From contig JACMPM010000038.1 in assembly GCA_014377485.1 (NCBI GenBank), positions 1 to 48,651 of the forward strand: 48,651 nt of DNA. Reading direction: 5' to 3'. Below are positions 15,358 to 19,904 of the stretch, piece by piece. The notes under the pieces are model-generated. The model ran no database searches, was not told the origin of the DNA, and saw only the letters and a list, made by a program, of their open reading frames with translations. The position numbers and the translations under genes are program-made. The number at the start of each line of letters is the position of its first letter. Within the stretch, counting starts at the first letter, position 1. The DNA comes from Bacteriovorax sp. GTDB lineage: Bacteria; Bdellovibrionota; Bacteriovoracia; Bacteriovoracales; Bacteriovoracaceae.

Positions 15358-15858
15358 ATGTCGAATAAAAAACCTATAGAAACACTTCAAGAAAATGCAT
15401 CAGGCTTTTTTGATAAAATTAATACCAAATATGCCAGCCAGATTAAATGTTCAGAAGGTTGTTCTAAATGTTGTTATACCGATATTTCAATTTTTAAAGT
15501 TGAAAGCGAAAGACTTCTTGCTTGGTTTAACTCCCAGAGCGCCGAAACGAAAATAGAATTACAGACCTTATGGAAAGGGACTGTAGAAAAAGGCGCCTGC
15601 ACTTTTCTTTACGCTGATCGCTGTAGTGTTTATGAAGCCAGACCTGTTATCTGTAGAACACAGGGAGCACCTCTATATCTTGCATCAGAAAACTCTCTGG
15701 ATTATTGCCCGTTAAACTTCGAGCAAGGGGATCCACCGAAAGAGGATTGGCTTAACTTGGAAAGGCTTAATACTATGCTTTCGTTAGCTGCTAAAACGAG
15801 TGGATTGGATGAGAGAATTAGGCTTAAGAAATTTAAGGCTGAACTTTTGGCGCTTTGA
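15358..15858 (+). CDS. YkgJ-family cysteine cluster protein (zinc/iron-chelating domain)
   Basis: 166 residues. Eight cysteines in the CxxxCxxCC family pattern: Cys31, 35, 38, 39 (CSEGCSKCC), then Cys81, Cys89, Cys99 (ARPVICR) and Cys117 (DYCPLNF). This domain binds a metal or Fe-S cluster; function is unestablished. No signal peptide, so cytoplasmic. It stands alone, after the structured element and divergent from the BMP operon. Confidence 0.85.
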   Translation: MSNKKPIETLQENASGFFDKINTKYASQIKCSEGCSKCCYTDISIFKVESERLLAWFNSQSAETKIELQTLWKGTVEKGACTFLYADRCSVYEARPVICRTQGAPLYLASENSLDYCPLNFEQGDPPKEDWLNLERLNTMLSLAAKTSGLDERIRLKKFKAELLAL

Positions 15859-16341
15859 TTTTATTTTACGATTACATTGCTCTATACACTCCAGTTCTCA
15901 GTATGGCCGTCGTCTGGATTAGGATGAAAATTAAAAGTTTTTACTGTGAAAGTTCCTGGTGCTTAATAAATATTTTTCAAATCCCATAACTAATTTGGGA
16001 TCATTGTTTTCTAGTTGCTTAGAATTAAACTTTCATCCAGTCGATGTTACCCCCCCACCCATTTGGAAAAGATATTATGAGTTAGATTAGATAATTTACT
16101 AGGGATATAAAAATACTACTTTTGAACTCGTAATCCTCACTTTTAATTCAAGATTAGCAGATTGCACAGGAATTTAGCCAGCCTTGCTTAGCTTTACATA
16201 CTGTCTTCGCTTTTGTTTCATTTTGATCAATAGCAGTCCTGTTGTATCGACAGTATTTTATCACGGTGCAACGAATTCAATTTGTATAAGTAAATTAATC
16301 CATGATATAAGGGATTTTGGTAGTAAACATATCAGTCGCCA
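15859..16341. other. Long gap with coding remnants, no intact gene recognised
   Basis: No full-length gene. Seen: an inverted repeat ATCCCA / TGGGAT near 15982-16001, possibly ending the YkgJ transcript; a run of seven C at 16050-16056; and two short minus-strand frames with protein-like composition. One ends at 15882 and carries FNFHPNPDDGHTENWSV; the other is at 16154-16264. Both are cut by stops upstream, so they look like gene debris. Confidence 0.4.
16154..16264 (-). pseudogene. Short Cys-rich reading frame, probable remnant
   Basis: 36 codons from GTG, with four cysteines (KYCRYNRTAIDQ near the start and a C-terminal WLNSCAIC). The same frame continues upstream through TGA and TAA to an ATG near 16358, so it may be the tail of a decayed small secreted protein. 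No ribosome binding site before the GTG. Chance cannot be excluded. Confidence 0.2.
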
Positions 16342-16396
16342 TTGATATATTTTAAATTTGCCTCCATAATTTATTTACCCTTTAACCGTGGTAAAT
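16342..16396 (+). promoter_or_regulatory. Promoter with overlapping inverted-repeat operator for arsR-pst
   Basis: TTGATA (16342-16347), 17-nt spacer, CATAAT (16365-16370). The predicted transcription start falls in the inverted repeat ATTTACC (16373-16379) / GGTAAAT (16390-16396), which ends 2 nt before the regulator ATG. Binding of the ArsR-type protein here would block transcription, the usual autorepression geometry of that family. Confidence 0.5.
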
Positions 16397-16398
16397 AG

Positions 16399-16695
16399 AT
16401 GAGCGAAATAGTTATATTAAGTCCCTGCTCGGAAAAATTAAAAATTATTTTTAACCCTCAGTGGTTAAAAATTTTAAAAATTCTTGCTAAGGAAAAATTA
16501 AACGTAACTGCTATCAATGAGCAGATTGATATTCCTCAAAACCTGCTTTCATATCATTTAAAAGTTTTAGAAGAGCACCATTTTATTAAAGGTGAGCGAG
16601 CAGGTAAAAGTGTGGTATATCACAATTCCAATAACCTTACTTTTAAAAATAATAAAATGAAAATTAATCTTAATTGTTGCGAACTTAGTTTTTAA
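16399..16695 (+). CDS. ArsR-family winged-helix transcriptional regulator
   Basis: 98 residues, typical of ArsR/SmtB repressors. Helix-turn-helix in TAINEQIDIPQNLLSYHLKV (residues 37-56), followed by the beta-wing FIKGERAGKSVVYH. It lacks the canonical CVCDL metal site in the recognition-helix region, but has Cys10 and an adjacent C-terminal pair Cys93-Cys94 (NCCELSF). In Acidithiobacillus ferrooxidans ArsR, C-terminal cysteines bind As(III), so a thiol-based metalloid sensor is plausible (inference). It is 18 nt upstream of pstS in an apparent operon, with its own operator at 16373-16396. Phosphate-specific regulators (PhoB/PhoR/PhoU) are not in the cluster. Confidence 0.85.
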   Translation: MSEIVILSPCSEKLKIIFNPQWLKILKILAKEKLNVTAINEQIDIPQNLLSYHLKVLEEHHFIKGERAGKSVVYHNSNNLTFKNNKMKINLNCCELSF

Positions 16696-16713
16696 TAAGC
16701 GTAGGAGTTTTGT

Positions 16714-17508
16714 ATGAAGTTTTTTCTGTTGATCTCTCTTTTATTTTCTCAATTCTCTTTTGCCCAAGAGCAAACGATTACTCTTACAGGTTCAAGTACG
16801 ATTGCACCTCTTGCTATGGAAATTGGAAAACGGTTTGAAAAACTTCACCCTGGAATTAAAGTCGATGTTCAAACGGGTGGCTCTTCTCGTGGAATAAAAG
16901 ATGCAAGAGAAGGAACCGCTGATATTGGCATGGTTTCACGCTCGCTTAATCCTGACGAACAAGATCTAAAATTTTTCACAATGGCCAAGGATGGAGTAAG
17001 TGTAATTCTCCATAAAGATAATTCTGTTAAAGTTCTATCAACTGATCAGGTTATTAAAATCTATAAAGGCGAAATTAAAAACTGGAAAGAAGTAGGTGGA
17101 AGGGATGCTCCAATTACCGTTGTCAATAAAGCAGAAGGAAGATCAACTCTTGAACTTTTTTTACACTTTTTTAAATTGAAAAATTCTGAAATTAAGGCAA
17201 GTGTTGTTATAGGTGACAACGCTCAAGGAATTAAAACTGTTGCCGGTAATCCGAACGCTATTGGTTATGTTTCAATTGGAACTGCGGAGGCAGCAATAGT
17301 TGAAAAAAATCCGATAAAACTTATTTCAATGAATGGCATTGAAGCAACAACTGCTTCTGTGAAGAACAGCACATTTCCAATTTCACGTGTATTAAATCTT
17401 GTCACGAAAACCCAACCAAAGGGATCAATCAAAGAGTTTATTGAATTCTCAGTTTCAAATAAAATTAATGATCTTATTATTGAACAATTTTTTGTTCCGA
17501 TTCATTAA
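16714..17508 (+). CDS. pstS: Phosphate ABC transporter periplasmic binding protein
   Basis: 264 residues. Signal peptide (residues 1-17, ending SFA-QE). PstS-like motifs: LTGSSTIAPL at the mature N-terminus (phosphate-contacting Ser/Thr), TGGSSRGIKDAREG, ADIGMVSRSL, and NKAEGRSTLELFL for the second lobe. It is of the short PstS class (about 260-290 residues). AGGAG lies 7 nt before ATG. Binds inorganic phosphate in the periplasm and hands it to PstCA; second gene of the arsR-pst operon. Confidence 0.9.
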   Translation: MKFFLLISLLFSQFSFAQEQTITLTGSSTIAPLAMEIGKRFEKLHPGIKVDVQTGGSSRGIKDAREGTADIGMVSRSLNPDEQDLKFFTMAKDGVSVILHKDNSVKVLSTDQVIKIYKGEIKNWKEVGGRDAPITVVNKAEGRSTLELFLHFFKLKNSEIKASVVIGDNAQGIKTVAGNPNAIGYVSIGTAEAAIVEKNPIKLISMNGIEATTASVKNSTFPISRVLNLVTKTQPKGSIKEFIEFSVSNKINDLIIEQFFVPIH

Positions 17509-17510
17509 GC

Positions 17511-18341
17511 ATGTTTAAAACAATTAGTTATATTTTTGCATTGATCGGCTTCATTCTTCCTTTGTTAATTATCATTTATCTTTTTAGAGAAAGTCATGAA
17601 GCAATCAATCACTTTGGAATAAAAAAATTTCTTTTTGATCCTTCCTGGTATCCAAACGAAGGCCTTGTGGGCCTTGCCGCTCAAATTAATGGAAGTATTG
17701 CCGTTGCCTTTCTCTCAATTCTTTTAGCTGTCCCTTCTTCAGTTTCTTTCGTTTATACAAATGAATTTTTATTACCTAAAAAAATTACTTTTTTTAACAA
17801 CCTGGGAATAGATACCTTCTCAGGCATTCCTTCTGTTATTTTCGGACTTTGGGGGCTCGTTAAAGTTGTTCCTTATTTTGCCGTTAATCACCCTCCGGGG
17901 ACATCACTTTTAGTGGGGGCCATCATTCTCGGCATGATGATTTTTCCTGGATTAGTTGTGGGAATAAGAGGATTGATTCAAACTTTTAATCAACACTATC
18001 AGTTCTCTTCTGCAAGTTTAAATCTATCTTCCTATTCTTATTTTTTTAAAGTCTTCATCCCCGCAAATATTAAAGGTCTTACTGGTGTGTTCTTGTTACA
18101 ATTTGGCAGATCCCTTGGAGAAACAATGGCCGTTCTTATGGTGACTGGAAACGTTTCTCAAAATCCAGATTCACTTTTTTCACCAATTAGAACGCTTACC
18201 AGTAATATAGCGCTGGAAATGGCTTATGCAACAGGAGCTCATCGTTCAAGTCTTTTTATGAGTGGGCTCATCCTCGCTTGTGTTCTGCTTTTGCTTAGTC
18301 TTCTGGCCATATTTTTAAGACGAGATGATCATGAATATTAA
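17511..18341 (+). CDS. pstC: Phosphate ABC transporter permease PstC
   Basis: 276 residues, about six transmembrane segments. It carries the pst permease features GIPSVIFGLWGL and, near the C-terminus, the EAA-loop element GRSLGETMAVLMVTGN, which contacts the ATPase. It starts 2 nt after the pstS stop and overlaps pstA by 17 nt, consistent with translational coupling. Confidence 0.9.
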   Translation: MFKTISYIFALIGFILPLLIIIYLFRESHEAINHFGIKKFLFDPSWYPNEGLVGLAAQINGSIAVAFLSILLAVPSSVSFVYTNEFLLPKKITFFNNLGIDTFSGIPSVIFGLWGLVKVVPYFAVNHPPGTSLLVGAIILGMMIFPGLVVGIRGLIQTFNQHYQFSSASLNLSSYSYFFKVFIPANIKGLTGVFLLQFGRSLGETMAVLMVTGNVSQNPDSLFSPIRTLTSNIALEMAYATGAHRSSLFMSGLILACVLLLLSLLAIFLRRDDHEY

Positions 18342-19152
18342 AAAAAATTTAATTGTTTTGATTTCATTTCCTATTCTGATTTTATTTTTCATGATGATTT
18401 CAAATATTATTCTTGAAGGACACGCTGGTCTTTCCTGGAATTATTTTGTGACAGAAGCAAGTCATGCCGGGAGAAGCGGGGGAATCGCTCCGATCATAGT
18501 TTCCACGACGATAATTGTTATTCTAACTCTTCTTATTTCGACGCCATTTTCTTTTTGTAGTGCTCTGATATTAACATTGGTCATTTCAAAAAATCGTTAC
18601 TTGCTTTCACTTTTTGAAATTTCACTTACTCTTTTAAGTGGTCTGCCCTCAGTAGTTTTTGGATTATTTGGCAGTGCTTTTTTTGGCAAGACATTAGGAT
18701 TTGGTTATTCTCTGATTTCAGGCGCCCTAACTCTTTCATGCATGGTTTTACCGTTTTATACCAAAATCTTGCACGATAATTTTAAAATACTCCCTAGGGA
18801 GTATTTTTTGTCTGGCAAGGCCCTGGATCTTTCCTTGTATCAATTTGCAAAAAATATTCTCATTCCACTCAACCTTTATGCAATAGCCGCTGGTGCAATC
18901 TTTTCTATCAGCCGTGCGCTTGGAGAAACGGCAGCTTTGATTTTTACCAGCGGCTACGTTGATCGATATCCTCATTCACTCCTTGATTCAGGACGAACTC
19001 TTTCTATTCATATCTACGACCTGGCCCTAAATATTCCAGGCGGCGATCAAGCCGCTCTCAAGGCTTCATTTGTCTTTTTGTTATTATCTTTAACTATCAA
19101 TTTTATTTTAAGTGTAGTTCTAAAAAATACACTTCTAAGAGGTCTTCAATGA
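18325..19152 (+). CDS. pstA: Phosphate ABC transporter permease PstA
   Basis: 275 residues, six predicted membrane segments. Shares LSGLPSVVFGLFG and the EAA-type loop SRALGETAALIFTSGY with PstC. Two possible starts, ATG 18325 and ATG 18331, both inside the pstC end; the second has slightly better spacing to GACGAG. The stop overlaps pstB by 4 nt (ATGA). Together with PstC it forms the channel. Confidence 0.9.
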   Translation: MIMNIKKNLIVLISFPILILFFMMISNIILEGHAGLSWNYFVTEASHAGRSGGIAPIIVSTTIIVILTLLISTPFSFCSALILTLVISKNRYLLSLFEISLTLLSGLPSVVFGLFGSAFFGKTLGFGYSLISGALTLSCMVLPFYTKILHDNFKILPREYFLSGKALDLSLYQFAKNILIPLNLYAIAAGAIFSISRALGETAALIFTSGYVDRYPHSLLDSGRTLSIHIYDLALNIPGGDQAALKASFVFLLLSLTINFILSVVLKNTLLRGLQ

Positions 19153-19904
19153 TTCAAGTTAAAAATTATTATTTATCTTTTGGAAAAAAGAAAATATTGA
19201 ATGATATCAACTATCAGTTTCAAGCTGGCATTACTGCCATCGTAGGACCTTCCGGGAGCGGTAAATCAAGTTTCGTTTTAAGCTTAAACAGATTGACTGA
19301 TCTTTATTCAAATACCAGATATTCCGGTGAAATTCTTTTCGAAGACAATAATATTTTAATTCAGAAGAAAAATCTGGGAAAAATTCGTCATGCAATTGGA
19401 ACTGTCTTTCAAAAACCAACTCCCTTTCCCGTTTCTATCTACAAAAATCTAGAACTCTCGTTAATAGAATTGGGCACAGTTGAGAAAAAAAACTATCTTG
19501 AAAAAATTAAAGAAGTTTTGAAAAAAGTCTCACTATGGGAAGATGTTCAAGACAATTTACACAAAAGCGCCTTGAAACTCTCAGGTGGACAGCAGCAAAA
19601 ACTTTGCATTGCCAGAACTCTTCTCTTAAATCCAAAAATTCTTATTTTAGATGAACCGTGCAGCTCGCTGGACCCGATTTCTACTCTACAAATCGAAGAA
19701 CTTTTAATACAAATTGCCAAACTTACTCCCGTGATTATTGTAACTCATAATCTGAAGCAGGCTAAACGAATTGCAGAGCACCTCATTGTTTTTGGAATTC
19801 ATGAAGGTGTGGGAAGTATTATTGAAAAAGGTCGTAGTGAAGAGGTTTTCCTGGCCCCTAAACATCATTTCACAAAAACCTATTTAGAGTATGAAGCTTT
19901 TTAA
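19149..19904 (+). CDS. pstB: Phosphate ABC transporter ATPase PstB
   Basis: 251 residues. Walker A GPSGSGKSS, Q-loop in GTVFQKPTPFPVSIYKN (the PFPxSIYxN segment is diagnostic of PstB), signature LSGGQQQKLCIARTL, Walker B ILILDEPCSSLD and the switch His in VTHNLKQA. Overlaps pstA by 4 nt. No phoU follows, which is unusual because PhoU normally closes pst operons; the signalling branch is therefore absent here or encoded elsewhere. Confidence 0.92.
   Translation: MIQVKNYYLSFGKKKILNDINYQFQAGITAIVGPSGSGKSSFVLSLNRLTDLYSNTRYSGEILFEDNNILIQKKNLGKIRHAIGTVFQKPTPFPVSIYKNLELSLIELGTVEKKNYLEKIKEVLKKVSLWEDVQDNLHKSALKLSGGQQQKLCIARTLLLNPKILILDEPCSSLDPISTLQIEELLIQIAKLTPVIIVTHNLKQAKRIAEHLIVFGIHEGVGSIIEKGRSEEVFLAPKHHFTKTYLEYEAF

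Follow-up and report, generated by a model that had tools for sequence, protein, structure and literature searches.

A probable arsenic-responsive spare phosphate importer headed by an ArsR-family regulator in Bacteriovorax sp.

Introduction

Arsenate closely resembles phosphate chemically, and most of what is known about how bacteria keep taking up phosphate where arsenic is present comes from a small number of Proteobacteria. In Agrobacterium tumefaciens 5A, the regulator ArsR1 represses the pst1 operon (pstS1, phoB1), which is induced by As(III), whereas pst2 is unresponsive (PMC7965956). Extra pst operons are often carried by arsenic islands (PMC3834237), and cyanobacteria possess clusters of the order arsR-pstS-gap3-MFS/arsJ-acr3-arsC (PMC4284471, PMC3610870); a 2014 review noted that arsR stands before pstS in these clusters and suggested co-regulation by arsenic (PMC4284471). 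Here we describe an arsR-pstSCAB operon in a 48,651-nucleotide stretch of DNA (hereafter the window; contig JACMPM010000038.1) from a 3.95 Mb genome of Bacteriovorax sp. With moderate confidence we propose that this operon encodes a spare phosphate importer whose expression is probably triggered by arsenic and not by a shortage of phosphate.

The operon shares part of its design with each of these systems. As with ars1/pst1 of strain 5A, where an extra pst operon is placed under ArsR and a second one serves phosphate stress, the importer in the window is accompanied by another pst system. In strain 5A, however, arsR belongs to a nearby ars operon and pst1 has its own phoU and phoB, whereas in the window arsR itself opens the operon and only pstSCAB follows it; this comparison rests on operon layout and regulation. 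The cyanobacterial clusters (PMC4284471, PMC3610870) likewise have arsR directly ahead of a pstS-type gene, but there it is a lone binding protein in an arsenic-resistance operon rather than a full pstSCAB set; the two are compared here by gene order. Finally, the importer resembles pst1 of the arsenite-oxidase islands (PMC3834237) in being of an extra, apparently horizontally moving kind found beside arsenic genes, with another pst elsewhere. Such islands are defined by aioBA (PMC3834237), which did not turn up in the loci studied here, although no specific search for it was made. Arsenic control of a pst operon (Agrobacterium) and arsR-pstS linkage (cyanobacteria) are already known. Provisionally, what appears to be new is the regulator class, with a C-terminal Cys-Cys pair and an N-terminal cysteine, the operator that goes with it and how widely the cassette occurs; we found no description of the class, its operator or a cross-phylum cassette in the open-access literature.

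Results and discussion

An extra importer next to a separate Pho system

The original prediction placed arsR and pstSCAB in one unit, and the open reading frames (ORFs) and family matches agree with it. The five genes, all intact and co-directional, form a compact unit at 16399-19904 (Table 1), with gaps of 18 bases between arsR and pstS and 2 bases between pstS and pstC, and overlaps of 17 bases (pstC/pstA) and 4 bases (pstA/pstB). The order of a binding protein, two permeases and an ATPase within one operon is that of a PstSCAB system. The best NCBIfam matches of PstS, PstC, PstA and PstB score 184, 177, 160 and 279 bits, all under the curated cut-offs, and family membership suggests phosphate as the substrate. 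The regulator matches HTH_5 (PF01022) and HTH_20 (PF12840) above the Pfam cut-offs and reaches 56.1 bits against NF033788 in NCBIfam (cut-off 55).

The same prediction held that phoU is missing and that an ArsR-type regulator takes the place of a Pho switch. Both statements are correct for the operon but not for the genome, which has a single PhoU-family match on another contig (C19), in the order pstC-pstA-pstB-phoU-phoB-phoR. Here pstB and phoU were named from matches, and pstC, pstA, phoB and phoR from gene order and sequence appearance. Another pstS lies behind a porin-like gene on contig C21. Because the genome has this separate pst-phoU-phoB-phoR system, the importer in the window is an extra one. 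The same phoB and phoR-like genes would allow ordinary Pho control, in which PhoB from elsewhere in the genome drives pst and arsR is a decaying passenger, and the ArsR and operator of the window are indeed the most divergent of the set described below. We nevertheless regard this explanation as improbable: the operon and all three cysteines of its regulator are intact, and no Pho-box-like site stands out upstream of arsR, where the best match to the Escherichia coli-type box has 6 mismatches in 14 positions (the genome's other pstS likewise has no clear box, and the host's consensus may differ). Moreover, the arsR of an arsR-sphX-arsJ cluster in Nodularia is not raised by phosphate limitation (PMC9846622).

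A regulator with a conserved cysteine pair at its C terminus

Known As(III) sites in ArsR proteins comprise types 1-3, the two-cysteine site of SpArsR and that of ArArsR (PMC11868830). AfArsR of Acidithiobacillus ferrooxidans has the type 2 site, Cys95-Cys96-Cys102, and SpArsR uses two cysteines to bind methyl-As(III) (PMC11868830, PMC11212059). The regulator in the window has cysteines at positions 10, 93 and 94 only, as originally predicted, and no CVC motif, which separates it from the type 1 proteins (R773), whose Cys32/34/37 lie at the DNA-binding helix. Like AfArsR and SpArsR, it carries a C-terminal vicinal cysteine pair, the feature of type 2, at an apparently matching position: when the ArsR profile is aligned to AfArsR, the second cysteine of the family falls on residue 96, so the pair probably corresponds to Cys95-Cys96. 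Unlike AfArsR, it has no counterpart of the third ligand Cys102 and has a conserved N-terminal Cys10 instead; because the protein ends four residues past Cys94, we did not file it as type 2. Cys10 could provide a third thiol alongside the pair. Loss of these cysteines in relatives had been named beforehand as a finding that would count against the prediction. The relatives retain them: all 55 aligned regulators have both Cys93 and Cys94, and all but one have Cys10.

An AlphaFold2 model of the regulator (predicted local distance difference test, pLDDT, 89) is a winged helix whose fold matches include CzrA, CadC, SqrR and other ArsR/SmtB proteins. The modelled C terminus consists of strands rather than a helix, and the cysteine pair is located in a loop.

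The cassette spans at least six phyla

As a single query against 144 relatives, the window ArsR retrieved distant ArsR matches only, none of them in 13 congeners. The idea that it is a unique gene was overturned by a tblastn search of plasmids, in which arsR precedes pst genes in Pseudanabaena and Nostoc. In the Pseudanabaena locus, arsM and arsS lie 6-9 kb from arsR-pst; in the plasmid locus of Nostoc edaphicum, an IS630 transposase gene splits pstC and interrupts the operon (L060:10390-11388; handles beginning with L, G and C denote loci, genomes and contigs). An ArsR alignment was then used to scan a genome collection, giving 80 loci; these are the top-scoring matches to a single degenerate pattern and hence a sample, not a census. 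In 59 loci, six seed loci included, pst directly follows arsR in the same direction, and 56 remain after three duplicates are dropped. According to their record titles, they span at least six phyla, namely Cyanobacteriota, Planctomycetota, Verrucomicrobiota, Acidobacteriota, Pseudomonadota and Bdellovibrionota. A search of related genomes for arsR-pstS linkage had been suggested as a check on the original prediction, and the linkage is conserved across these phyla. In Iodidimonas (L116) the arrangement is reversed: arsR follows pstSCAB, and an operator-like site of 17.3 bits precedes pstS.

Within the phylum of the window, 6 of 369 genomes have a regulator of this class, and the PstS of the importer has no match among the 13 congeners at the limit used. 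This patchy distribution points to horizontal spread of the cassette. We found no match to the regulator in viral contigs that would indicate a viral source. One record in the sample, CALQIT020000015.1 (L129/L160), is titled as a Streptomyces griseus metagenome-assembled genome (MAG) and shares its arsR-pst genes with a Bdellovibrionota genome (G212:C15); the title looks wrong.

A shared operator and its weak copy in the window

A palindrome-constrained search on 51 non-redundant upstream regions, with the window excluded, yielded the family operator TgATATGAA-N6-TTCATATcA upstream of arsR, with the carrying fraction at its upper bound of 0.99. A motif trained on cyanobacteria only gave a log-likelihood gain of 388, compared with 34-40 for shuffled input, for which fewer restarts and iterations were run. 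The upstream site given by this cyanobacterial motif outscores all other positions of its locus in 20 of 22 other loci (one, L114, partly masked); the window is one exception, and L095, with its site just beyond the scanned stretch, is the other. It is also top-ranked in 12 of 15 related arsR loci that have no pst directly behind.

In the window, the best family-motif site upstream of arsR is ACATATCAGTCGCCATTGATATAT, which overlaps the -35 hexamer, lies where the operator is expected, scores 6.9 bits and ranks 8th of 48,628 positions. This score is reached by 5% of shuffled upstream regions, and the exact form ATATCA-N8-TGATAT is held by 0.02% of them; the genome contains that form twice, the second copy lying within an ORF. 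The operator proposed originally, the inverted repeat ATTTACC/GGTAAAT, had to be abandoned. It scores -30.5 bits against the family motif, and the candidate over the -35 box, 46 bases upstream, is better. Repeats of its kind are frequent in shuffles: 27% of dinucleotide shuffles of 16200-16420 contain one or more 7-bp inverted repeats with a gap of 3-16 bases, and this stretch contains four other inverted pairs of 10-11 nucleotides of similar quality. The promoter TTGATA-17-CATAAT named in the same prediction can be confirmed and scores highest among 14 promoter-like sites, a number that does not stand out from chance (12.8 expected).

Table 1. Features of the arsR-pstSCAB operon and its upstream region in the window
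Feature	Position	Strand	Basis
Candidate ArsR operator ACATATCAGTCGCCATTGATATAT (ATATCA-N8-TGATAT), overlapping the -35 hexamer	16327..16350		Family motif scan
Predicted sigma-70-type promoter TTGATA-17-CATAAT (TTGATA 16342-16347, CATAAT 16365-16370)	16342..16370	+	Consensus scan, 10/12 matches
Inverted repeat ATTTACC-N10-GGTAAAT (16373-16379 / 16390-16396), judged not to be the ArsR operator	16373..16396		Family motif scan, shuffles
arsR, ArsR/SmtB-family regulator, 98 aa, Cys10 and Cys93-Cys94	16399..16695	+	Pfam, NCBIfam, AlphaFold2 pLDDT 89, fold matches
pstS, phosphate-binding protein, PstS family, TIGR02136 type	16714..17508	+	Pfam/NCBIfam; PstS tree
pstC, phosphate ABC transporter permease	17511..18341	+	Best NCBIfam match TIGR02138
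pstA, phosphate ABC transporter permease	18325..19152	+	Best NCBIfam match TIGR00974
pstB, phosphate ABC transporter ATPase	19149..19904	+	Best NCBIfam match TIGR00972

Related importers and regulators adjoin arsenic genes

In a PstS tree, the importer of the window groups with a clade that counts 66 members (support 97/97); of these, 53 are arsR-linked. Genes for arsM, an ArsS-like protein or arsC are found near pst in 9 of 13 same-clade Bdellovibrionota loci without arsR, in 9 of the 56 arsR-linked loci and in 1 of 7 control loci with ordinary Pst systems. The names ArsM and ArsC come from best NCBIfam matches that fall short of the curated cut-offs; the ArsS-like protein misses its own by a wide margin. 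The control set is not clean, as one of its seven members (L175, G093:C4) also lies in an arsM/arsS/arsC cluster. In that locus, a PstS from outside the main clade is about 6 kb or less from arsM, arsS-like and arsC genes; this could be another type of Pst recruited to an arsenic cluster.

The regulator class itself is linked to arsenic genes as well. A member with the operator heads arsM in one locus (L098) and an aquaporin-ArsM fusion in another (L118), and a related regulator is situated between arsM and an arsS-like gene (L184). The fusion (L118:6319-8217), directly behind the class regulator, is a 633-residue protein that combines a MIP-family channel of the aquaporin type with an ArsM-like methyltransferase.

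These neighbourhoods might instead mean that Pst supplies ArsC, ArsM and ArsS with arsenate, imported along with phosphate, and does not serve to protect phosphate uptake. Many loci do have same-clade pst genes next to arsM, arsS-like and arsC genes; arsenate is among the substrates that Pst systems can transport, and import of As(V) through PstS1 has been suggested (PMC3834237). However, high-affinity Pst proteins generally favour phosphate by 500-850-fold (cited in PMC3834237), and most arsR-linked loci have no neighbouring arsenosugar genes, so that we give arsenate import little chance.

The genome of the window has acr3, arsC-like and MerR-like genes, as well as an arsS-like/arsM pair, near which the operator was sought but not found. 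The acr3 and arsC-like genes form an operon with a glyoxalase-like gene, headed by the MerR-like regulator and not by an ArsR (L169:6005-8305, G000:C26). The arsS-like radical SAM gene, arsM and a glycosyltransferase-like gene stand in a row (L168:5352-8706, G000:C23), which is suggestive of arsenosugar synthesis.

Proposed control by trivalent arsenic

The original prediction left the inducer as a metalloid or thiol signal. Because related loci link both importer and regulator to arsenic genes, and because the linkage and the cysteines are conserved, a metalloid is the best-supported inducer, so the metalloid half of that idea is strengthened while the ligand itself is still inference. From the sequence comparisons we infer where ArsR represses, which ligand it binds, which way the regulation runs and what the cell gains, as follows. 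At rest, an ArsR dimer would occupy the palindrome at 16327-16350, which covers the -35 box, and would repress arsR and pstSCAB. Once arsenate enters the cell and is reduced, As(III) or methyl-As(III) would accumulate and bind the thiols of Cys93-Cys94 and Cys10, releasing the repressor from DNA and allowing the importer to be made. Phosphate uptake could then be sustained despite the competing analogue arsenate, independently of the pst-phoU-phoB-phoR system.

Several observations weigh against this proposal. No arsenic gene adjoins the operon in the window, and 47 of the 56 arsR-linked loci have none within the stretch examined. The operator of the window, at 6.9 bits compared with 11-29 bits elsewhere, is the weakest of all loci and is missed by the cyanobacterial motif. 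Its regulator deviates at residues conserved in the family, Trp22, Tyr52 and Glu58. Since the protein is an outlier at these residues and Tyr52 sits in helix 47-59, the helix expected to read DNA, the window may plausibly have a shifted operator. Lastly, in four loci from Acidobacteriota MAGs (L099, L101, L105 and L107), class regulators with the same operator have sat, Hmc-like and apparently qmo genes around them, an arrangement that would fit control of sulfate reduction.

The Acidobacteriota loci also bear on a redox or reactive-sulfur switch, in which Cys93-Cys94, perhaps with Cys10, would form a disulfide or polysulfide bridge that frees the DNA, and the importer would answer oxidants or sulfide. 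Precedents exist among ArsR/SmtB proteins in RexT, which senses hydrogen peroxide through a vicinal disulfide (PMC8960804), and in the sulfide-sensing SqrR, one of the fold matches. The cysteine pair of RexT, however, lies in helix 3 (PMC8960804) instead of at the C-terminal end; L107, in a sulfur neighbourhood, retains just one of the two paired cysteines and lacks the N-terminal one; and pst-linked members neighbour arsM, arsS and arsC rather than sulfur genes. We therefore consider such a switch unlikely, and arsenic remains the signal that we favour.

A wider and more tentative claim, to which we give slightly less than even chances, is that the cassette is shared horizontally among at least six phyla and links phosphate uptake to arsenic by way of a distinct ArsR class, which has an apparently unreported three-thiol arrangement and a conserved operator of its own, the same class also controlling arsM, the aquaporin-ArsM fusion and perhaps sulfate-reduction genes. 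If so, the cassette with its operator and cysteine signature would be a testable marker of arsenic-controlled phosphate uptake across many phyla, cyanobacteria included, and the regulator class a candidate new kind of arsenic sensor.

Other loci of the regulator class and a neighbouring gene

In six cyanobacterial loci (L091, L092, L104, L106, L110 and L113), the regulator and its operator are divergent from a kinase-like gene; ABC transporter genes are nearby in most of them and a radical SAM gene in several. In another locus (L183, G151:C437), a class regulator with a 19.6-bit operator precedes genes resembling parts of an ECF-type transporter, not pst. In the window itself, a gene for a protein with a CxxCxxCC zinc- or iron-chelating domain (15358-15858) lies 540 bases upstream of arsR on the same strand, with no evident link to the operon.

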